From Alphaproteobacteria bacterium (lineage in GTDB: Bacteria; Planctomycetota; Phycisphaerae; UBA1845): 64,000 bases of DNA. Numbering within the stretch: the stretch's first letter is position 1; the number at the start of each line of letters is the position of its first letter. This document shows positions 2 through 11,387 of this stretch, one piece after another. The DNA lies in NCBI GenBank assembly GCA_028285105.1, contig JANQQE010000031.1, positions 62,001-126,000 of the forward strand, read 5' to 3'. The notes beneath the pieces were generated by a model, which was not told the origin of the DNA, did not search any database, and was given only the letters and a program-made list of their open reading frames with translations. The translations under genes and the position numbers were made by a program.

Positions 2-3000
2 CCAAACGAGTCAAAGATCTTCGCGCTCAACAAGGTTACGCTGGCCATACTGATTTCGTGTGCGACGACGGTTGCCGAATCGACGACGAACGATGTGTCT
101 TCGATCGAACAAACGTTACATCAACTTTCGACAACGCCCGGTGAATTCAATTCCGGATTGCTCCCCGAAGGCGTCACGCTGGCGCATCACGAATGGCGTA
201 ATGGCCTGCTTCGTGTCGAATTGAATCTTCCATTGCACACACCTGATTGGCAGACCAGCTTATTTGACATGCAGCGAATCTCTCACGCACTAGGACATCG
301 ATTCGAGCACCGTGAAGATTTTCGCGGTGTAGAAACGTGGATTCGATCATCCAGGAAACAGAAACTCCAGAGCCTTGAATCGTTCGCAATTCGACATGAC
401 GCATCAAAAGAGGTCCGCGACACAAGCGCAGCTCAATACGCGATTGACACTTCCGAAGACCGGGCTGTGCAAGAGTCTACCGCTATGTTTAGCGAAAGCA
501 CACGATCAGGAATCGGTGGTCCCACGGCGAGCGCGCCGACGCAACCGACCGGCGCGCTTACTGGCGTGGTCGTGTACTGCGCCGCTGGACACGGGTGGAC
601 GGCCGGTACAACACAGTGGGCGCTGCAACGCGACGCCGAATTGTTCGGTATGAACGAAGACTACGGCAACATCGACCAACTGAATTATTTCGTTCACTAT
701 GCGTTCAATGCCGGAGCGACCGTTGTTCCGTTTCGCCCCGTCGGATATCAAACCGAAGAGATCGTTGTCGACAATGCCGTCCCTGAGGTGACTTACAGTG
801 GCGCATGGACATCGAATACAAGCAATCCGACGTACTATGGACAAAATGCCGGGGATCGCTATCGCTTTTCTTCCGCCAGTCCAACGGAAACCGCAACTGC
901 CCGCTACACCCCGAATATCAGCGTGACCGATTTCTACCCGGTTTACTGTTTTGCCATCCCGGGCACGAATCGCGTTCCGCAGACTTATCGAATCAAGCAC
1001 AGCGGAGGGATCGGAGAGGTCGTTGTCGACCATCGCGAAGTTGGAAACGGTTGGGTGTGGTTGGGCGAGTATCACTTCGTCGCTGGTGAGGACAACTACG
1101 TCGAAATCTCCAACGCATCACCGACCATCGGCGTGGTGATCGCCGACGCAATCCGCTGGGGCAACGGCATCGGCGATATCCCCGCTACCAGCCAAAACAT
1201 AGTGAGCGGTTACCCGCGCGACGAGGAGGCTCAACGCTATTGGGCGCAAAGCGAGTTGGGCAACAATGCAAACGGTTACAATGCCGCCAGCATTTGGGAT
1301 TCCGCGGGGTCGCATGTTTCCGACAACATCAGCACCGGAAGCCGTTGGGCGCGGGAGATGAATCAGGTGCCGGCAGGTGGCGTACTTGCGGATCGTTGGA
1401 AGCGCATCTACTTGGAATTCCACACCAACGCCTCCACCGGAGCTGCGCGGGGCACGATTGCGCTAACCAGTTCATCAAACCCGACCACGAACCAAACCAC
1501 TTATGCGACGACCATCGCCGAGGAAGTCGAAGGGGACATGCTTGCCTTGAGTGGACCAACGGGAATCTTTGAACACGATTGGGCCGACCGTCCGTTCCCG
1601 ACCCTGGCTGGTTCGTTCGGGGCGATCAGCACAACCGGAAACAGCAACGAATTCGACGCCACGATTATCGAAGTCGCTTTTCACGACAATGAGCAGGATG
1701 CCGAGTTGTTGCGTGATGCCCGCGTTCGGGCGGCGGTGGCTCGCTCCAGTGTTCAGGGGATTATCCGATTCCTCAATGGCCTGCCCGGCAGTCAGGTTCC
1801 TTTGGTGTTTCCGCCCGCCCGACCTAGGGCTGTTCATGTATCTGATTTAGGAGACGGTGACATTACCCTCGCCTGGTCCGAGCCAACGGTCGACGGTGCC
1901 CATGGCGATGCCCCCGATGGGTACGTCGTTTATTCCTCGACGAACGGGTTCGGGTTTACGATCGAAACCATGGTCGAAGATGCCCAGTCCGGGACTCCGC
2001 CCACAACAGTGACACTTAGTGGCATACCCAGGAACAAGACCATGTACTATCGCGTGTCCGCTGCCAACGACGGTGGCGTATCCGCACCATCTGGAACCAT
2101 CGCGATTCGTCGGCCGCCGAGTGGGGCGGCAGCCATCTTGGTGGTGAATGGTTACGACCGCCTGCGAAGACAGCAAAATCCGGTGACGTTGTTTACCCAG
2201 CCGCCATCGGTGGCTGGGCTTGCCCCGGAGCGACCCGTGTGGCGTCGGATCAACTCATTCGATTACATCGTAGAATACGCTCAGGCGATTGCGGGGACAG
2301 GACGCGGTTTCGTTTCCTGCGAAAACGAAGCGGTGGAGCAGGGGCATGTGTTGCTTTCCGATTATGAAAACGTGGTGTGGGGTTGCGGGGCGGAGAGTGT
2401 TGAGGACACAACCTTGTCTGCGACGGAGCAGACCCTGCTGGCGGATTACCTCGATGCGGGGCGCGGGTTGTTCATCACTGGGTCCGATCTGGCGTTCGAT
2501 CTTGTGGATCAAGGGACGGGAGCGATCTTCGCCAGTACCGAACTGGCGATTACGTTTTCCGCCAACGATTCGGGCACGTTTGACGTCGATGTTCTTGGGG
2601 GCGGGATATTCTCAGCCCTTACGGGTTTTGACTTCGACCCGGGATCCGGTGCCCGCTACGAAGTCGGCGAACCGGATGTGCTTGGTGTCAACGTGGGCGG
2701 TGAAGCGGCGCTTGAGTATGCGGGCGGGAGTATCGCGGGTGTGCAGTTCGACGCACCGGGCTATCGAACCGTATCGTTTGGTTTTCCGTTCGAGACCATC
2801 TCATCGGAGTCTGCCCGTATTGACGTGATGGCCGCAGCGTTGACTTTTCTGGATGGGGCGTCGGTTCCATTGTTGTTGGACGCTGATGGCGATGGTGATC
2901 TCGACCTGACTGACTATCAGATCATGAATCTCTGCCTCGCTGGACCAGACGTCGATTATCCCGACGGCAACTTCTGTCTCGTTTCAGATGGCAACGAGGA

Positions 3001-3064
3001 TTTGACCATCGATCTCGCCGACTTCCACCTGCTTCAGCAACTTTTCACTGGACCGTTGCCCTAG
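2..3064 (+). CDS. Secreted N-acetylmuramoyl-L-alanine amidase-like protein with golvesin-like, FN3 and dockerin-like modules (5' partial)
   Basis: The frame stays open to the left edge and codons 2-94 encode a hydrophobic signal peptide (VTLAILISCATTVAES), so the first start-like codon (GTG at 95) is not the real start and the gene is cut by the window. Numbering from that GTG, an amidase_3-type fold begins near residue 155 (CAAGHGW, likely zinc His), is interrupted by a golvesin/Xly-like beta domain (about 220-360), and resumes with EFHTNAS (second zinc His) and IIEVAFHDNEQ (catalytic Glu). An FN3-like domain (about 575-680), a region reminiscent of a class I glutamine amidotransferase fold, and a C-terminal dockerin-like pair (DADGDGDLDLTDY, later DLTIDLADF) follow. 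Predicted role: cleaving stem peptides from peptidoglycan outside the inner membrane. The domain order is clear; the exact substrate is inferred. Confidence 0.8.
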   Translation, partial: PNESKIFALNKVTLAILISCATTVAESTTNDVSSIEQTLHQLSTTPGEFNSGLLPEGVTLAHHEWRNGLLRVELNLPLHTPDWQTSLFDMQRISHALGHRFEHREDFRGVETWIRSSRKQKLQSLESFAIRHDASKEVRDTSAAQYAIDTSEDRAVQESTAMFSESTRSGIGGPTASAPTQPTGALTGVVVYCAAGHGWTAGTTQWALQRDAELFGMNEDYGNIDQLNYFVHYAFNAGATVVPFRPVGYQTEEIVVDNAVPEVTYSGAWTSNTSNPTYYGQNAGDRYRFSSASPTETATARYTPNISVTDFYPVYCFAIPGTNRVPQTYRIKHSGGIGEVVVDHREVGNGWVWLGEYHFVAGEDNYVEISNASPTIGVVIADAIRWGNGIGDIPATSQNIVSGYPRDEEAQRYWAQSELGNNANGYNAASIWDSAGSHVSDNISTGSRWAREMNQVPAGGVLADRWKRIYLEFHTNASTGAARGTIALTSSSNPTTNQTTYATTIAEEVEGDMLALSGPTGIFEHDWADRPFPTLAGSFGAISTTGNSNEFDATIIEVAFHDNEQDAELLRDARVRAAVARSSVQGIIRFLNGLPGSQVPLVFPPARPRAVHVSDLGDGDITLAWSEPTVDGAHGDAPDGYVVYSSTNGFGFTIETMVEDAQSGTPPTTVTLSGIPRNKTMYYRVSAANDGGVSAPSGTIAIRRPPSGAAAILVVNGYDRLRRQQNPVTLFTQPPSVAGLAPERPVWRRINSFDYIVEYAQAIAGTGRGFVSCENEAVEQGHVLLSDYENVVWGCGAESVEDTTLSATEQTLLADYLDAGRGLFITGSDLAFDLVDQGTGAIFASTELAITFSANDSGTFDVDVLGGGIFSALTGFDFDPGSGARYEVGEPDVLGVNVGGEAALEYAGGSIAGVQFDAPGYRTVSFGFPFETISSESARIDVMAAALTFLDGASVPLLLDADGDGDLDLTDYQIMNLCLAGPDVDYPDGNFCLVSDGNEDLTIDLADFHLLQQLFTGPLP

Positions 3065-3129
3065 GGGCGTCGGGCCAATCCGTCGAATTCCATTTTCGCC
3101 GATCGACGGTCAGCGCTCACTCGTCTTGG

Positions 3130-5259
3130 TCAGGGAGCCATTAAGCCTTGAAACAGACTGAAGTCCTCAAGGTCCAGATTCCCGTCTCCATCGAGGTCGC
3201 ACTGGAGGCAAATATTTCCATCGGGATAGGTTGTCACCGGGCCTAGCAAGCACGCGCCCAGAAGCGTGTAGTCATCGCTGTCGACGTCGCCGTCGGAGTC
3301 TGCGTCGCATGGCACGGGGATGCTACCTAACTGCACATCGACCCGGGTCACCTCACCCGCGATCACCTGTACATTTTCGACCAGCGCAGTTCCGACGCTC
3401 GGCTTGTCGAATGTTAATTCGTATGTACCCGGAGGAATTTTCAACATTGAGTAGAGGCCGTCGCCCGACGAGAGTGCTGTGTATCCCGATCCGTTGCGGG
3501 TCACATGGGCGTCGACAATCGGTTCGCCTGAGTTTAGATCCGTGACCGTACCGATGAGGATGCCCAACGTTGGCGTGTCTTTCCACGGCATCATTGGCGT
3601 GGCCGCGAGGTTTTCATATGGCCCACCAATGTTCGAGTAGCTTGGCCAATAGTTGTTGCTGTCGAAACTGCTGTAACTGAAAACGACGTTTCCGTCTCCT
3701 CCGATCACCTTGGTGCTGTCGACTTGACTAAGGAGTTCACTCACGCCCAGCGACGTGACTTGCCCACCATAAATATGGCGCCCGGCATTGTTGGCCACCC
3801 AGTCCGGTAAGACTTCGCTGTAGTCTGGATTGGCTCCGCCGTCTGCCCAGTAAATCTGCGGAACAATAAAGTCTTGCGCGCCAGCCGCCAGCCACGCCTG
3901 GGCATCCTGGTAGACGCATGTCTTACCGTACTGAAAACCACATGCACTCTGCGGATATCCTGGGTAACGACTTCCTTCATACAGGCCCAGCGGAGCCGAA
4001 CTGACTTTTATCTCGGGCTTGACTTCGGCGATCTGCGCGTAGATGTCGCAGAGAAAACGCGTGAACTGATCGCGGGTCCAGTCGCCAAAATTCAAACCGT
4101 CCGGGTTTCCTTCCCCTGCGCGGCGCGCTGTAGAAATCGGATCGTAGGAAAACTCAATACCGGGCGAGCGAATGCGATCAAAGTGAATGCCGTCTACGTC
4201 GTAATTCTCCACGACATACATAACCTGCTGGCGGGTGTAAGCCGACGCGTCCGGGACGCCTGGGGCGATCCAGATGTAGTTGGATTCTTCGCACTGCACG
4301 GGGTTGCCAAGATCATTGTGAATCAGCCAATCGCGAGCGCCGGGGTTGTCCGCATCGAAGTGTTCCCAGAATACATGGCTCAAATCGTAAGTCGGTTTCT
4401 GCGGTGCGGCCGGGCAACCGCCGGTTTGCCAGGCGGTGTGCGTGTTGATGTACGCATGAAACTCCAGTCCGTGGGCATGGGCCTGATCGATGGCATACTG
4501 CACTGGATCGAATGTCCCCCATCCGGGTGGTTTGCTGCCGTTTCCGGAAAGAATCGGCGACCACGGTTCGAACGGCGAGTCATAGAGCGTGTCGGCTTGT
4601 CCTCGTATTTGGAAGAGCACGGCATTGAAGTTGTGGGTGTCGAGGTCGGACATGATGTTGCTGATGTTGTTCTGCACGACGGCGAGGTTGGTGCTTGGCC
4701 ATTCGAATCGTGAAGCCCACATACCCCGAAACTCATCCGGAGTAGTACTGCTGTCTTGGGTGAATCGGACGGCATCAGCGATGACAACGCTCGGTGATGC
4801 GTCGCTGCTTAGCGAAACATAACCGCTCGTACCGGGGTCGAACCAATAACTCCCAATCGAATTCCAAGTCCCACCGCCGCTTTGCTGATTCACGTTTACA
4901 TTGGTGGTCCCAGCGGCGTGGTGGATCGTGTACGGCGCATCCGAAGCTCGGTTTGAGCCCTCGGGGTAGTAGACTTCCACCAAGTATTGCCAACCGGTGG
5001 TGATGTTCGGCCGCCATTCCGCCTCGGCTGTTCCACCGCTTGAGGTTGTGACGAACCGGTAGTTGTTGAGATACTTATCGCTTGACGAACTGGCCGTGGT
5101 CCAGGTTCCCGCATTGATGGCGAAGGTTCCATCAACATTGTTGGCGTTGTCGTTGTCGACGACGACTTGCTGCGCAACCGCGTACATCGGTAGCATCGCG
5201 ACGATGGCTAGAGAACGAAAATTTTTGGTCAGATAAACGGCGGGGTTGCATCGTAACAT
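3130..5259 (-). CDS. Secreted GHL10-family (DigH/YngK-like) glycosyl hydrolase with golvesin-like and dockerin-like modules
   Basis: The 709-residue product begins with a hydrophobic leader (SLAIVAMLPMYAVAQ), so it is exported. A golvesin-like beta domain (about 33-165, ending VVIADAVRFT) precedes a GHL10/DUF187 barrel (about 170-560) with landmarks EFRGMWASRFEW, FQIRGQADTLYDS, HAHGLEFHAYINTHTAW and VDGIHFDRIRSPG; the last carries the likely acidic active-site region. A carboxypeptidase-regulatory-like beta domain (about 590-650) and dockerin-like calcium loops (DADSDGDVDSDDY, DLDGDGNLDLEDF) close the protein. E. coli DigH of this family cleaves peptidoglycan glycan strands stripped of peptides. 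It converges on the amidase gene 65 bp away and shares its golvesin and dockerin modules, which suggests a joint role in wall turnover. An AGAGGAG-like site lies 12 bp before the ATG. Confidence 0.85.
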   Translation of the reverse strand: MLRCNPAVYLTKNFRSLAIVAMLPMYAVAQQVVVDNDNANNVDGTFAINAGTWTTASSSSDKYLNNYRFVTTSSGGTAEAEWRPNITTGWQYLVEVYYPEGSNRASDAPYTIHHAAGTTNVNVNQQSGGGTWNSIGSYWFDPGTSGYVSLSSDASPSVVIADAVRFTQDSSTTPDEFRGMWASRFEWPSTNLAVVQNNISNIMSDLDTHNFNAVLFQIRGQADTLYDSPFEPWSPILSGNGSKPPGWGTFDPVQYAIDQAHAHGLEFHAYINTHTAWQTGGCPAAPQKPTYDLSHVFWEHFDADNPGARDWLIHNDLGNPVQCEESNYIWIAPGVPDASAYTRQQVMYVVENYDVDGIHFDRIRSPGIEFSYDPISTARRAGEGNPDGLNFGDWTRDQFTRFLCDIYAQIAEVKPEIKVSSAPLGLYEGSRYPGYPQSACGFQYGKTCVYQDAQAWLAAGAQDFIVPQIYWADGGANPDYSEVLPDWVANNAGRHIYGGQVTSLGVSELLSQVDSTKVIGGDGNVVFSYSSFDSNNYWPSYSNIGGPYENLAATPMMPWKDTPTLGILIGTVTDLNSGEPIVDAHVTRNGSGYTALSSGDGLYSMLKIPPGTYELTFDKPSVGTALVENVQVIAGEVTRVDVQLGSIPVPCDADSDGDVDSDDYTLLGACLLGPVTTYPDGNICLQCDLDGDGNLDLEDFSLFQGLMAP

Positions 5260-5947
5260 CGAATTAACAGTCTCCTCTCTGGATCTGCAACTTCTTAAGG
5301 CGGTCGGATTGGTGCGTGCCCACCCTAAACTTCCACCAGATCTTCATTTTTGTATCGTCGACCGGCACATGCGTTATTGGTCGGGTTCGCGATCCTGGCA
5401 ATTTGGTTCGCACAATGAATCAAACCGTCTGTCAGCTGACAGGTTAGCAGAACCGGCATACTCCATGATAGACCTGACGTTCGTGCATCGTCCAATTTTC
5501 AGCCCTGAGTACGCCAAACTGCATTTTGGGCCGTCTCAGGGTTTTAAACGCATGTGAATTAATGACTTAGAGATGTATTTCCTAGTTCGCTGCGACGTCC
5601 GAGAATAAAATCCGTAACTGAATTTTATGTGGCTTTCACGTTGCATTCGGCACTCAACTTTGGATAAGATGGAAAGAGGAAGTGGATTTAAGAGAGAGAG
5701 CGTACTGCGCACGGCGTAATTTGTGCGGTGTGGCGCTCACGTAGAGAACCCATATCGCAGTTCATTTCGCCACCGAGGAGAAGCGCCATACGGCGTTATG
5801 CCCCTCGGGGTCACTCGCGTCGCGATCCTCGCGACGAGAATAACCGCGCATAGATTCTAGAGCCGAAACCGCATGAAAAACATGCACTATTTTGTACGCA
5901 GGCATCTTTAGCGCTCTCAACTGCGCGTCCTTAAGGAGGAGTCAGAT
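5260..5947. other. 688-bp intergenic region between the GHL10 gene and the PEP-CTERM gene
   Basis: The region carries the divergent upstream sequences of the two flanking genes. A 103-codon open frame at 5246-5557 lacks a ribosome site, overlaps the GHL10 start and resembles no family I know, so I do not call it. The half next to the PEP-CTERM gene holds two strong hairpins, listed separately. No sigma70-like promoter stands out. Confidence 0.6.
5773..5835 (+). promoter_or_regulatory. Structured leader upstream of the PEP-CTERM gene (nested hairpin plus a 7-bp stem)
   Basis: CCGAGG at 5773-5778 pairs with CCTCGG at 5803-5808. Inside it, 5-bp arms at 583-87 and 5792-5796 (offsets within 5783-5796; one G-T pair) enclose ATAC. 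Directly after, GTCGCGA at 5819-5825 pairs with TCGCGAC at 5829-5835 around TCC. The hairpins end about 98 bases before the AAGGAGGA ribosome site at 5933-5940. They may fold in the mRNA leader or may end a short upstream transcript; no T-tract follows. I recognise no riboswitch class. Confidence 0.45.
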
Positions 5948-6652
5948 ATGAAGAAGTTACTAGCTATGGGAATTGCGATCGCTTTCTCTCAGCCCGCGAT
6001 GGCGACCTTTATCGTAGAGGCCACCGGCGGATTGGCCAGCGGAACCAACGTGACCGCGACGGGGGGAAGTCCCTCGACCCCGAGTTCCGCAGTGGGGTTG
6101 ACCAGTTCCAACAGTTTGTTCGGAGGAAATGCTGTAGCCCCTGACAGGGACACCTATACATTCTCATACACACCGGGAACGGACGCCGACAACGACACTG
6201 GCGCGATCACCGCAGGTACTTTGCTGGGCGATTCTACGGTTACCGCCCCGGATACCTTCACTTCGGGCGATTTGTTTGCAACTGGGCTGACCGGTGGCGT
6301 CTCCGGTTTCTATGATGTGTATATCACTTGGCCCGAGACCACCAATGCCAATGGGGCTGGTTCGACAATCACCATCGAGAGCGATGGCAGTGACATTGTT
6401 CTCGATCCGATCATCCAGAATTCGACAGCTCATGGCCCGGGTGCCAAGGGCAACAACGCCTGGCTTAAGATTGCCTCGGGGATAAGCTTGACGGCTGGCA
6501 ACACCTACAACGTATCGGTGGAAGCAAATGTTAATTCGTTCGTGTCGCAGCGCGTGCATGGCGTAATGTGGGAACGCAACCTGGTTCCTGAACCGGCTTC
6601 GCTTTCACTGTTGGCGCTTGGCGGCATCGCGATGCTGCGTCGCCGTCGGTAG
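5948..6652 (+). CDS. PEP-CTERM sorting-signal protein
   Basis: The 234-residue product starts after a textbook AAGGAGGA (5933-5940). It has an N-terminal signal peptide (MKKLLAMGIAIAFSQPAMA) and a C-terminal tripartite sorting signal: the VPEPASL motif, a short hydrophobic stretch (LLALGGIAM) and the basic tail LRRRR. Such proteins are exported and then processed by an exosortase. The middle (about residues 70-200) is rich in Gly, Thr, Asn and Asp, as expected for a beta-sandwich surface domain (GGVSGFYDVYITWPETTN), but I cannot name the domain. The gene stands alone, with a structured leader before it and a terminator after it. No exosortase gene is in the window. Confidence 0.88.
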   Translation: MKKLLAMGIAIAFSQPAMATFIVEATGGLASGTNVTATGGSPSTPSSAVGLTSSNSLFGGNAVAPDRDTYTFSYTPGTDADNDTGAITAGTLLGDSTVTAPDTFTSGDLFATGLTGGVSGFYDVYITWPETTNANGAGSTITIESDGSDIVLDPIIQNSTAHGPGAKGNNAWLKIASGISLTAGNTYNVSVEANVNSFVSQRVHGVMWERNLVPEPASLSLLALGGIAMLRRRR

Positions 6653-7109: not shown

Positions 7110-10100
7110 ATGCGGAACTCGTTTAACCAGCGCGCAGGAGCAGCCGTTCTGGTATGCCTCTTTGCGACGACCACGTTTGGACAGTTTCTATCGGAGACAG
7201 TCGACTTCAATAGCTCACCCATTGGGTCGGCTGAGAACTCGCAGGAGATGTTTCAAATTCCAGAGTTCTCAAACTCCACCGACCGATACGTTGTGCCGAA
7301 CTTACCGGCAAGCTTCAACAACAATTCGACATTTCGAAACGACTTGCTCACGGCACCTCCGGCTCCGAACCCCGCCGCGCTCGAGACTATATTTACATGG
7401 GTCGATCCGAGCGATGCAGATGCGTGGGTCCGACTCACGACGAACAATGGTCCAATTACTCCAAATCCTGCATTAAGCACGGCTGGAAAAGTTCGTTTGA
7501 TCGTTGTGGGTAATCCGTTTGGTGCGTCGATGGGTTTGGCCATTGGTGTACGGGAGACAGGTCGCGACGTTCCTCAGTTGGCAGACGGTGGAACAGATCA
7601 GGCCGGTGGCGAACCAGCTGCTATCGAATGGGTTGGTGTGACCACTGACAATACGACGATTCTCGCCAACTCAAACGGTATCGAGTCCACACTTGGCGGT
7701 GACGATGTCTTCGTGACAACCAGCGGTCTGCAAGCGATTAACTGGGGTCCTAATCAGATTCTTGAATCTACACTTGGTGGCGACGACGAGTTTGCATCTG
7801 GATTCATTTTCGCTCGAGATGGAGGGCGCACGCCCATTCCCGCGCTGGTGATCCCTTCATTTCCTGTCGGACGACTCATCGAGTGGGATCTGGCCGCAGG
7901 TACGGTTCGCATTTCATCCGATACCACTCCGGGCAACTTCGGTGCCCCAATGGGCGGGTTCGGCGACTTTACGGGTAACGGTACATTGGCCGATTCGCCC
8001 AACGGGCGAGGCACGTTGGAGCACCTCGCGATCACCAACATCGCCACAGACCTCACCACCCAAACCAACATGTCTATTGACAACCTCGTGTTCGAGTCTC
8101 CGGTGGCTGAGCCGGCCGTCGCGCCAACTATTGTTGAGCCGATCATCGACGGTGACCCGAGTATTACAGTGACGGATCTGGTTCTCGGCGTGAATGAAGT
8201 GCGCGTCTTCCGCAACACGCAAGCAGCCCCGGAAACTTCGCTGTTTATCGCCACCAACGACGACCTAGACGTGACCCTGTTGTCACCGGCAGCCACCGGT
8301 GATGTTTTCTGGGCGAAGCAGGTTACGGCCGACAGTGGTTCCAGTGGATTCTCCGAACCTGTCACGGTTGTTCCACCGGGCCTGCTGCTCGTCGAGACAT
8401 TCGACACCTACGCCGATGATGCGGAAATGAAGACGGTCTGGAACAATTCGATTGCGGGCCCGACGGATGAATTGCGCCTCGAATCGGGCAACGCCGTAAG
8501 TTGCAACAACTTCATCGAAGAGTTTAACGAAAACAGCACGACTTTTTTCGAGGCCCGCGCGTATCGCGGTTTCGGAAGCGTCAACGGAAGTGACGCCACC
8601 CCGCTGAATGCGACGTGGCGATTCCGGCATACTGGAACGAGTGGGAACATGCGAACACGGTTCGAGTTGGCGCGATTCCCTGGCGAAGGTTGGACAGCTG
8701 GCCCGCGCGCCAACGGAACCACGGGTTTTGGGTTCACCAACAACCTTGGCGGCGTGTTTTCTTCGCAGTATGTGATCATGCTTCGTTCCGCGACGGACCC
8801 TGACGGTGGAGGCAGTGTCTTCCAGTTGGATACGTCGACCAATTACTATTGTGCGGCGACTGGCGTCTCTAGGTCTGCCGACGTGTGGCACAAGTTTGAC
8901 ATCATAATCGATTCGGACTTCATCAATTACTTTGTCGACGACGAACTCATTATTCTACCCGGTTTCCCCGACGGTGTTCCGCGTCCAGACGCCGGTCCGT
9001 ATCAATTCAACGTCTTGGGCGTTGGGCTTAGCACGAACGACGGACAAATGCAGTGGGACGACATCGCGGTAACGACGGGTTCCCCGGTTTTGCCGTTCGG
9101 AGATCCGCCCCCGCTTTCACCACAATTTGCCGGGGCACTTCTACCCGGTCAAACGAGCGTGTCCGTCATCGACGTCAACACGAATGCGACGCGTGTGTTC
9201 GTCCTTGATGATGCAACGACCATCGGATTCGCCAACTCAAACGGTGAGTTTGAGACCACGACGCTTACGATTCCTGTTTCTCCCCTGCTTGAAGGGTCGT
9301 TGTTGACGGTGCGGCAGGTCGTCGACGGTGTGGAAAGTTGTGATTCCCAACCGGTTCCATCGGGCGGCGTCCCGGACGCACCGAACATCGTTACGCCAGT
9401 CGAAGCCGACGATCCCACCGTGACGGTGGAGAATATCGATCCGTCGGCCAGCCTCGTCACCGTCTTTGCCAACAGCAACGCCATCGGTTCCATCGATCCG
9501 GGAGGGGCGACTACCGTTGCTGTTCCGGTTATCCCGCTCGTGGCGCTGGATATTCTGGAGGCAGCCGCCTCGAATCCAATTGGCCAGGGCGCGTTTTCGG
9601 ATAGCGTTGAAGTGGGTCGAGGAAACGGAACGTTCCTCTTGTCTGTTGGTGTGCGTGAAACTGGCCAGACGGAAGGACCGGTTGGTGCCGACGGCGGATT
9701 CTCCGGCGGCATCGAATGGGTCGGACCGTCGGCCACATCAAATGGTGCCCCACAGGGCATTCAGATCACGCCTGGTCCGACCTGGCAGCCCATTACGTTC
9801 GACCCGACATCGGACCCAATTCTTGGATTTGCGGGTGGCTCAGCAAATGGGACTATCGCAGGGACCTGGGGGACATTGGAACACTTTGCCATCGCGGTGG
9901 ACTCGAGTTCGCCAAACCGCTCGGTCGGTGCGTATAGCATTTATATTGACAACATCCAGAGCGGTTCCGACTTGCTGACAGATTTTGAATCGTTTGGTAC
10001 GGGCAGCACCGATGTGCTGCTGAGGTCTCCGAGTTTCTCCGGATCGACTTCAAGCAATCTGAATCCACCCCCGAACGTCTCGCAAGTGGCGGGTATCGGT

Positions 10101-11387
10101 AACCCAGGGAAGTCGCTCAATTGCCAGTTCTACTTCGAAGATACATCGTCGAATCGATGGGTGCGTTTGACCTCGTTCAACGTAGCCACGTTGGGCAACC
10201 CCCTGATTCGCCTGGATCAACCGCTTACATTCGACTTGTTGGTTCTGGAAAGTCAGCCGCCACCAGCACCGTCGCTGGAAAGTCCGTTGGAGGCGGGCGA
10301 CACCACGGTCACGGTGAACGACATTCTCGTCGATGCGTTGTCGGTGGATGTGCTTGCAGATGGCGCGGTCATCGCCACGGAGGATCCGGCTGGTTCGACC
10401 AATGGTTTTGAAATCGATGTTCCCCCGCTGGTGCATCTCGAAGAGATCACCGTCCGGCAGGCCACGATCGACGGGGCTAGCCCCCAATCTTCCAGCATCG
10501 AGGTTGGTAAGGGCAACGGCGTGATTACGCTTTCATTGGGTGTCCGCGAAACCGGTGACGCCGGACCGATCGGGTCGGAAGGATCGACATCTGGCGAGAT
10601 CACCTGGATCGGCGCATCGGGTACAGCGAGCGGTGCACCGATCGGTATCCAATTGTCACCTTCCAACAACTGGCAGACCGTAACCTTCGATCCCTCGGTG
10701 AACACGCTGGGTTTTGTCGCTGCGAATGATACTTTGGATACTGCAACCGGAACGATCGAGCACTTGGCTGTTTCTGTCGCGCCTCTTTCGCCCAATCGAA
10801 GCAGCGGGGTGTACCGCATGTTTATTGACAATGTGGTCAATGCCGATGTTGGCGGTCCCGGCGTGGATACCCTCATTACCGATTTTGAGGGTTTCCCGTT
10901 CGACGAAGAAGTCATTTTCCAGGAACCAACATTGTCCGGTAGCACGGACTTCAACCTGCTTTTCCCGCCATCGGCGAGCGCCAACAGCGACGACTACAAC
11001 AACGGTGGGGAACGTTCGCAGTTGTTGACTTGGTTCTTCAGGGACACGTCAGAAGGACGTTGGACGCGGATTACGACGTTTAACACCGAATCGCTCGCTT
11101 CCCCGATTGTCGATCTCACCAAACCGATTGAGATGGACATCTTGCTCTTGGCCGGTTGCTCCACTGCCTTCGGTGACATGGATGGTGATTGTGACATCGA
11201 TGCCGACGACACGACACTGTTTAACGGGTGTCTCGCCTCCGGTCCTGACAGTTCTTCGGGCACTGGTTGCACATGTGCCGACTTCAACGGAAACGGACGC
11301 GTTGACCTCTTCGACTATCAGGCCTTTCAAGAGGCCGCCGGTGTTGAAGATGCCAACGGAGGTACGATTCCCGATTGTACCCCATAG
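7110..11387 (+). CDS. Large secreted repeat protein with a dockerin-like C-terminus
   Basis: The 1425-residue product has a signal peptide (AGAAVLVCLFATTTFGQ), and AAGGAG lies about 10 bp before the ATG. A recurring module starts with GVRETG near residues 146, 846 and 1143, continues with an Asp/Gly-rich stretch and IEWVG or ITWIG, then GTLEHLAI (or GTIEHLAV) and a conserved IDN strand. Ig-like linkers of about 80 residues (APxIVxPxxxxDPTVTV) separate modules. Around residues 430-650 sits a different, LamG/concanavalin-like beta domain (FVDDELIILPGFPDG). The C-terminus has dockerin-like loops (DMDGDCDIDADDT, DFNGNGRVDLFDY). It is probably an extracellular adhesion or structural protein. I do not recognise the GVRETG module. 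Confidence 0.75.
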   Translation: MRNSFNQRAGAAVLVCLFATTTFGQFLSETVDFNSSPIGSAENSQEMFQIPEFSNSTDRYVVPNLPASFNNNSTFRNDLLTAPPAPNPAALETIFTWVDPSDADAWVRLTTNNGPITPNPALSTAGKVRLIVVGNPFGASMGLAIGVRETGRDVPQLADGGTDQAGGEPAAIEWVGVTTDNTTILANSNGIESTLGGDDVFVTTSGLQAINWGPNQILESTLGGDDEFASGFIFARDGGRTPIPALVIPSFPVGRLIEWDLAAGTVRISSDTTPGNFGAPMGGFGDFTGNGTLADSPNGRGTLEHLAITNIATDLTTQTNMSIDNLVFESPVAEPAVAPTIVEPIIDGDPSITVTDLVLGVNEVRVFRNTQAAPETSLFIATNDDLDVTLLSPAATGDVFWAKQVTADSGSSGFSEPVTVVPPGLLLVETFDTYADDAEMKTVWNNSIAGPTDELRLESGNAVSCNNFIEEFNENSTTFFEARAYRGFGSVNGSDATPLNATWRFRHTGTSGNMRTRFELARFPGEGWTAGPRANGTTGFGFTNNLGGVFSSQYVIMLRSATDPDGGGSVFQLDTSTNYYCAATGVSRSADVWHKFDIIIDSDFINYFVDDELIILPGFPDGVPRPDAGPYQFNVLGVGLSTNDGQMQWDDIAVTTGSPVLPFGDPPPLSPQFAGALLPGQTSVSVIDVNTNATRVFVLDDATTIGFANSNGEFETTTLTIPVSPLLEGSLLTVRQVVDGVESCDSQPVPSGGVPDAPNIVTPVEADDPTVTVENIDPSASLVTVFANSNAIGSIDPGGATTVAVPVIPLVALDILEAAASNPIGQGAFSDSVEVGRGNGTFLLSVGVRETGQTEGPVGADGGFSGGIEWVGPSATSNGAPQGIQITPGPTWQPITFDPTSDPILGFAGGSANGTIAGTWGTLEHFAIAVDSSSPNRSVGAYSIYIDNIQSGSDLLTDFESFGTGSTDVLLRSPSFSGSTSSNLNPPPNVSQVAGIGNPGKSLNCQFYFEDTSSNRWVRLTSFNVATLGNPLIRLDQPLTFDLLVLESQPPPAPSLESPLEAGDTTVTVNDILVDALSVDVLADGAVIATEDPAGSTNGFEIDVPPLVHLEEITVRQATIDGASPQSSSIEVGKGNGVITLSLGVRETGDAGPIGSEGSTSGEITWIGASGTASGAPIGIQLSPSNNWQTVTFDPSVNTLGFVAANDTLDTATGTIEHLAVSVAPLSPNRSSGVYRMFIDNVVNADVGGPGVDTLITDFEGFPFDEEVIFQEPTLSGSTDFNLLFPPSASANSDDYNNGGERSQLLTWFFRDTSEGRWTRITTFNTESLASPIVDLTKPIEMDILLLAGCSTAFGDMDGDCDIDADDTTLFNGCLASGPDSSSGTGCTCADFNGNGRVDLFDYQAFQEAAGVEDANGGTIPDCTP

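Follow-up and report, generated by a model that had tools for sequence, protein, structure and literature searches.

What set of functions joins an amidase gene and a glycosidase gene at the left edge of the 64,000-nucleotide stretch analysed here (the window; G000:C24:62001-126000, from genome G000 of 4.8 Mb in 36 contigs)? The two genes are convergent, the amidase at 2-3064 on the + strand and a GHL10-family protein at 3130-5259 on the - strand, and a preliminary description had proposed that the two activities are linked on peptidoglycan. Our preferred answer, to which we assign a rough probability of 0.62, is that the pair is a secreted peptidoglycan-breakdown system feeding N-acetylmuramic acid (MurNAc) catabolism, a detached piece of a locus kept together in other Phycisphaerae. 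The features of the pair are given below, with lengths in amino acids (aa) or base pairs (bp); G, C, L and f numbers are our handles for genomes, contigs, loci and families.

2-3064, + strand: secreted N-acetylmuramoyl-L-alanine amidase, 1039 aa (Amidase_3 split by a Golvesin insert, fn3, dockerin-like C-terminus); Pfam profiles
545-1807, + strand: Amidase_3 catalytic domain together with its Golvesin insert; conserved residues, AlphaFold2 model, Foldseek
590-592 (His), 656-658 (Glu), 1421-1423 (His), 1670-1672 (Glu), + strand: Zn and catalytic codons of the amidase; homologue alignment
761-1156, + strand: Golvesin_C module within the amidase domain; 94.6 bits, Foldseek
1820-2101, + strand: fibronectin type III domain of the amidase; 25.4 bits, cut-off 25
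2879-3061, + strand: dockerin-like pair at the amidase C-terminus, CLAGPDVDYPDGN linker; best match, in both directions, to the neighbour's dockerin
3065-3129, no strand: 65-bp intergenic stretch between the convergent genes; open reading frame coordinates
3130-5259, - strand: secreted Golvesin-GHL10 glycosidase, 709 aa, with CarboxypepD_reg and dockerin-like C-terminus; Pfam profiles, Cwp19 5oq2 E=3e-38
3154-3306, - strand: dockerin-like pair at the C-terminus of the GHL10 protein, CLLGPVTTYPDGN linker; Pfam and dockerin comparison
3328-3552, - strand: CarboxypepD_reg domain; 50.5 bits
3784-4731, - strand: GHL10 catalytic domain (PF02638), "DRIR" subfamily (HFDRIRSPG, INTHTAWQ); 131 bits, motif table, tree, Foldseek Cwp19
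4759-5163, - strand: Golvesin_C module of the GHL10 protein; 116.9 bits, xanthan lyase module 6f2p E=1e-19

The 65-bp spacing agrees with the preliminary description, and a simple terminator and promoter scan of this gap yielded no terminator-like site or promoter. The start of the amidase gene lies outside the window, at a GTG (L006:11946) or, better, an ATG (L006:11997) that precedes window position 1 by 5 bases.

An amidase with a module inside its catalytic domain

The family assignment of the amidase was upheld by an above-threshold profile match, four intact residues and a fold match. Amidase_3 (PF01520) scores 30.6 bits against a cut-off of 27, and its match covers only the second half of the domain because the domain is split by an insert. 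In all 33 aligned homologues, drawn from Phycisphaerae, Pirellulales, Verrucomicrobia and Sumerlaeota, the Golvesin module sits inside the amidase domain, after the strand that follows the Zn-Glu and before the second Zn-His. His16, Glu38, His293 and Glu376 (domain numbering) are invariant across the same set, and all four are intact in the window's enzyme. The surrounding motifs AGHGW, MNEDYGN, LEFHTNA and IIEVAFHDN are likewise conserved around what we take to be the Zn ligands (His, Glu, His) and the catalytic Glu of Amidase_3 enzymes.

The AlphaFold2 model of the domain has a predicted local distance difference test score (pLDDT) of 90.7, and in Foldseek searches its amidase part matched the amidases Ami1, Rv3717, CwlD and CwlV. 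The insert best matched the xanthan lyase C-terminal module (PDB 6f2p), followed by CBM6 and CBM35 modules. It shares fold and sequence family (Golvesin_C, PF25275) with the xanthan lyase module, whereas here the module sits inside a catalytic domain or is fused to GHL10. Family, residues and modelled fold together predict a zinc enzyme that cuts MurNAc-L-Ala bonds.

A paralogue on contig C6 (L020) is 47% identical to the window's amidase and belongs to a paralogous block with a 1548-aa protein and a pseudopilin. That 1548-aa protein is 30% identical to the window's 1425-aa dockerin protein, and the counterpart of the block in the window spans 7110-11387. Elsewhere, three golvesin-amidases stand in tandem in a Pirellulales locus (L137, 7035-13919). 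A third paralogue in G011 (L060, 7891-12027), included in another alignment set, in which the second Zn-His is replaced by Gln and the catalytic Glu by Leu, is probably an inactive amidase, judging from these substitutions.

A GHL10 subfamily distinct from DigH

The 709-aa protein also carries a Golvesin_C module, as had been described for both enzymes, along with GHL10 (131 bits, cut-off 27.9), CarboxypepD_reg and a weak Dockerin_1 match. Two GHL10 members are described as cutting peptidoglycan: Cwp19 of C. difficile, a lytic transglycosylase (PMC6016235), and DigH, a denuded-glycan hydrolase (PMC12288456). Cwp19 (PMC5765458, PMC6016235; PDB 5oq2) is the nearest solved structure; its TIM barrel is matched by Foldseek at E=2.9e-23 and 29% identity by fold alignment, from a model of only moderate confidence (pLDDT 65.7), and its attached modules differ from those found here.

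Asp196 and Arg132 are the Cwp19 residues under discussion (PMC5765458). Where DigH and Cwp19 have FDDYFY (Asp195-Asp196-Tyr197 within DDYFY) and FNPYR (Arg132 within NPYR), the window's protein has HFDRIRSPG and INTHT, so that Asp196 becomes Arg and Arg132 becomes Thr in this DRIR subfamily. The first Asp of the DRIR-type motif is invariant in 18 aligned Phycisphaerae members. A tree of 51 GHL10 domains resolves four types, DigH-type, DYIRFP, DYIRY and DRIR, and the genome has copies at C4:448k (DigH-type), C10 (DYIRFP), C4:843k (DYIRY) and in the window (DRIR). The C4:448k copy is the only one in the genome with DigH motifs and groups with DigH (support 100/98). Motifs and tree thus rule out the window's gene as a DigH orthologue, and "DigH-like" in the preliminary description is valid for the family and not for the subfamily.

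Paired dockerins

The linker CL(A/L)GP...YPDGN is indeed common to both neighbours' dockerins, and YPDGN is limited to these two among about 45 dockerins compared. Each is the other's best hit, at 67 bits (next best 52) in one direction and 65 (next best 55) in the other, a pattern that would favour exchange between the neighbours or shared targeting, without deciding which. The genome holds 102 Dockerin_1 matches (E up to 1) and no match to cohesin (PF00963); the dockerin is therefore a common surface or secretion feature with no identifiable cohesin partner. Co-targeting, as proposed earlier, retains the particular kinship of these two dockerins and loses its cellulosome-type cohesin route, which we rejected for want of a cohesin. 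The lipoprotein at 37.8 kb previously credited with SPOR-like repeats scored 13.8 bits against the SPOR profile, under the cut-off of 21, and this line of support was dropped.

The pair and its neighbours in relatives

Three further species of the genus (G001, G002 and G004, the last on a broken contig) retain the convergent pair, and both genes are absent from G003. In f4, a different family within the order, amidases of the same clade stand in a co-directional row of MurQ, sodium symporter, DYIRFP-GHL10, in some cases DRIR-GHL10, golvesin-amidase and DYIRY-GHL10 (G044 = L084, G051 = L055, G054 = L096, plus L085, L088 and L093). MurQ, identified by equivalog model TIGR00274, and the symporter accompany the golvesin-amidase at all six of these loci and not at the window, where the genome's own MurQ lies on C10. 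In G051, L088 and L093, the row with MurQ includes a DRIR-type gene. A classic Amidase_3 lipoprotein gene adjoins MurQ divergently in several relatives' rows.

The amidase tree places the window's copy in a clade of 17 rows (14 distinct loci; support 100/97) that contains all GHL10-adjacent amidases of the tree. A GHL10 gene lies within 10 kb at 10 of the 14 loci, as compared to 0 of 27 rows outside the clade (some with short flanks) and to an expectation of about 2% per genome. On the DRIR tree, members adjacent to the amidase fall into two distinct clades, a pattern suggesting more than one origin or retention of this arrangement. The golvesin-amidase is patchy in the order (34/114 genomes), being found in 17 of 21 genomes with DRIR-GHL10 and 17 of 93 without, in counts not corrected for kinship.

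NamZ is an exo-N-acetylmuramidase family. It stands beside golvesin-amidases at L055, L086, L116, L117, L118 and L148 (Pfam-confirmed in L117 and L055), and in the other Planctomycetota among these (L116, L117, L118, L148) it takes the place of GHL10 as the neighbour; the partner of the amidase therefore changes while the theme stays. Relatives thus retain the adjacency although their GHL10 subfamilies and gene orders vary, beside MurQ, the symporter, NamZ and classic amidases, and this context favours MurNAc and peptidoglycan catabolism over a DigH-like division role. The functional link first proposed between the two activities withstood this comparison, one that could have refuted it, and its interpretation shifts from division towards catabolism.

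Three further observations were made at these loci. At L062 2-3490 (G002:C45), a classic Amidase_3 gene, covered in part, converges with the gene of a 914-aa Golvesin-GHL10 protein of another subfamily, forming a second pair of this kind. In G011 (L059 12018-12944), a golvesin-amidase is followed directly by a short stretch of GHL10 (68 bits), perhaps what is left of a partner gene. Next to MurQ in L084, a BadF-like protein of 387 aa had no Pfam, NCBIfam or PDB match, and we do not claim it as a MurNAc kinase.

Probable wall-catabolism genes in the window's own genome

Three further rows in the genome complement the pair. Contig C10 carries MurQ, a sodium:solute symporter (SSS) and DYIRFP-GHL10 (L008, G000:C10:140000-150000, 2090-6236). 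On C1, LD-carboxypeptidase S66, GH20, Golvesin-GHL10-Golvesin and N-acetylglucosamine 2-epimerase lie on the same strand (L009 286-7886, G000:C1:195000-206000). The window's own contig C24 holds NamZ, an NlpC/P60 endopeptidase with SH3 and a DUF1611 gene whose DgcN match falls under that model's cut-off (L215 9020-14160, about 19.0-24.2 kb of C24); this putative muropeptide catabolism row lies upstream of the pair at a distance of about 42 kb, 38-43 kb to the left of where the window begins. The genome thereby encodes, in scattered form, a route that leads from the wall into MurNAc catabolism. The MurQ-GHL10 spacing of the C10 row is seen again in G001, G002 and G010.

All seven Golvesin domains of the genome are found in amidases, GHL10s or one NAGPA-type glycosidase. 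The latter, a phosphodiester glycosidase fused to Golvesin (L007 543-1877, G000:C4:443.5 kb), lies about 2.7 kb from the DigH-type GHL10. Apart from the two golvesin-amidases the genome has no Amidase_3 protein, and it has three Amidase_2 proteins.

Proposed mechanism and known systems

In the proposed scheme, the secreted amidase, whose catalytic domain houses a carbohydrate-binding module, would strip peptides at MurNAc-L-Ala bonds, and the GHL10 enzyme would cut the resulting, or otherwise partly stripped, glycan chain. The symporter and MurQ of C10 would channel the sugar products into MurNAc catabolism, with NamZ and the NlpC/P60 endopeptidase encoded on the same contig as the pair. The window's genes would then be a detached piece of a MurQ - symporter - GHL10 - amidase - GHL10 locus. 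That the amidase acts first is plausible, and peptidoglycan as the DRIR-type substrate, in nutrition or recycling rather than division, is what the scheme would imply.

The closest described logic is that of the B. subtilis murQ-murR-murP-amiE-nagZ-ybbC(namZ) cluster (PMC5061867), in which an etherase, a transporter, a MurNAc-L-Ala amidase and glycosidases are encoded together for stepwise extracellular breakdown. The pair may be viewed as a variant of such MurNAc-recycling clusters, one with an Amidase_3 split by a carbohydrate-binding module (CBM) rather than AmiE, a sodium symporter rather than a phosphotransferase system and GHL10s in the place of NagZ, and with its parts scattered over contigs C10, C24 and C1. 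The E. coli enzymes DigH and AmiA/B/C (PMC12288456) share the Amidase_3 and GHL10 families and stripped glycan as proposed intermediate; here the GHL10 subfamily is another (without the Asp196/Arg132 motif), the secreted proteins are modular and the neighbours catabolic. Tannerella forsythia, with murTKQ and an adjacent peptidoglycan-scavenging operon (PMC10465942), imports external MurNAc and uses it with MurQ, and NamZ enzymes are known there; the transporter is another, and the account consulted describes no golvesin-amidase/GHL10 pair. A locus combining MurQ with an amidase did not turn up in the literature under the name of peptidoglycan utilisation locus, and the golvesin literature found, on Dictyostelium, was no help for the window's modules.

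Alternative explanations

Several observations weigh against the catabolic reading. The window's two genes are convergent and therefore not one operon. The genus block also keeps genes for a pseudopilin, a PEP-CTERM protein and the 1425-aa protein, so its synteny is not specific and proves little alone; we rejected it as sole proof of coupling. Outside the genus, the closest DRIR relative (70% identical, in G054) lies away from that genome's amidase, no family-f5 genome has the adjacency, and the amidase paralogue has no GHL10 nearby in the C6 stretch examined. To these are added the uncorrected kinship in the order-wide counts and the missing Asp196 and Arg132, given which the DRIR reaction may differ from that of Cwp19 and DigH.

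The conserved block, pseudopilin, amidase, GHL10, PEP-CTERM and 1425-aa protein together, could have been inherited by descent without functional coupling. We consider this very improbable, as f4 has a different, co-directional order with GHL10s of three subfamilies, the adjacency occurs in two DRIR clades, the dockerins are reciprocal best matches and G003 lacks both genes. Alternatively, the GHL10 enzyme could act on a capsule, exopolysaccharide or matrix glycan, with the amidase a coincidental neighbour or one that trims the wall for access. The likeness of the Golvesin module to that of xanthan lyase, a catalytic site unlike that of Cwp19, the DRIR genes away from amidases in f5 and a Deinococcus GHL10-type enzyme that, by the title of its paper, acts on starch (PMC9967864) point this way. 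Such a substrate is nonetheless unlikely, since members of three GHL10 subfamilies are found repeatedly next to this one amidase clade, together with MurQ and NamZ, and the DRIR type itself joins the MurQ row at three loci.

The pair could also remodel the cell's own wall at the septum, producing denuded glycans and clearing them as the cell divides, like the E. coli amidases and DigH, whose activity classes it shares; that the genome has no Amidase_3 beyond the golvesin-amidases fits this role. We judge it quite unlikely, given that the relatives' neighbours are catabolic rather than division genes, that the Amidase_2 proteins are available for other roles, that the amidase is patchy, unlike a core division enzyme, that the SPOR lead fell under its cut-off and that the DigH-type GHL10 is a different gene. 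Within the catabolic reading, we tentatively entertain a more specific possibility: the DRIR-GHL10s, with a catalytic site unlike that of Cwp19 and DigH, might cut only amidase-stripped peptidoglycan, golvesin might be a stripped-glycan binding module common to both partners, and PVC (Planctomycetota-Verrucomicrobiota-Chlamydiota) bacteria might have their own secreted two-step system with an exchangeable partner glycosidase (GHL10 or NamZ).

Significance

To our knowledge, GHL10 enzymes have been found by profile searches in many bacteria and few of these have had their substrate tested. Their recurrent linkage in a gene row to an amidase, MurQ and NamZ offers a specific, cheap handle on GHL10 subfamily function. 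Planctomycete peptidoglycan was itself reportedly doubted until 2015; the row hints at an ability of uncultured Phycisphaerae to draw part of their living from the walls of dead bacteria or to recycle their own.

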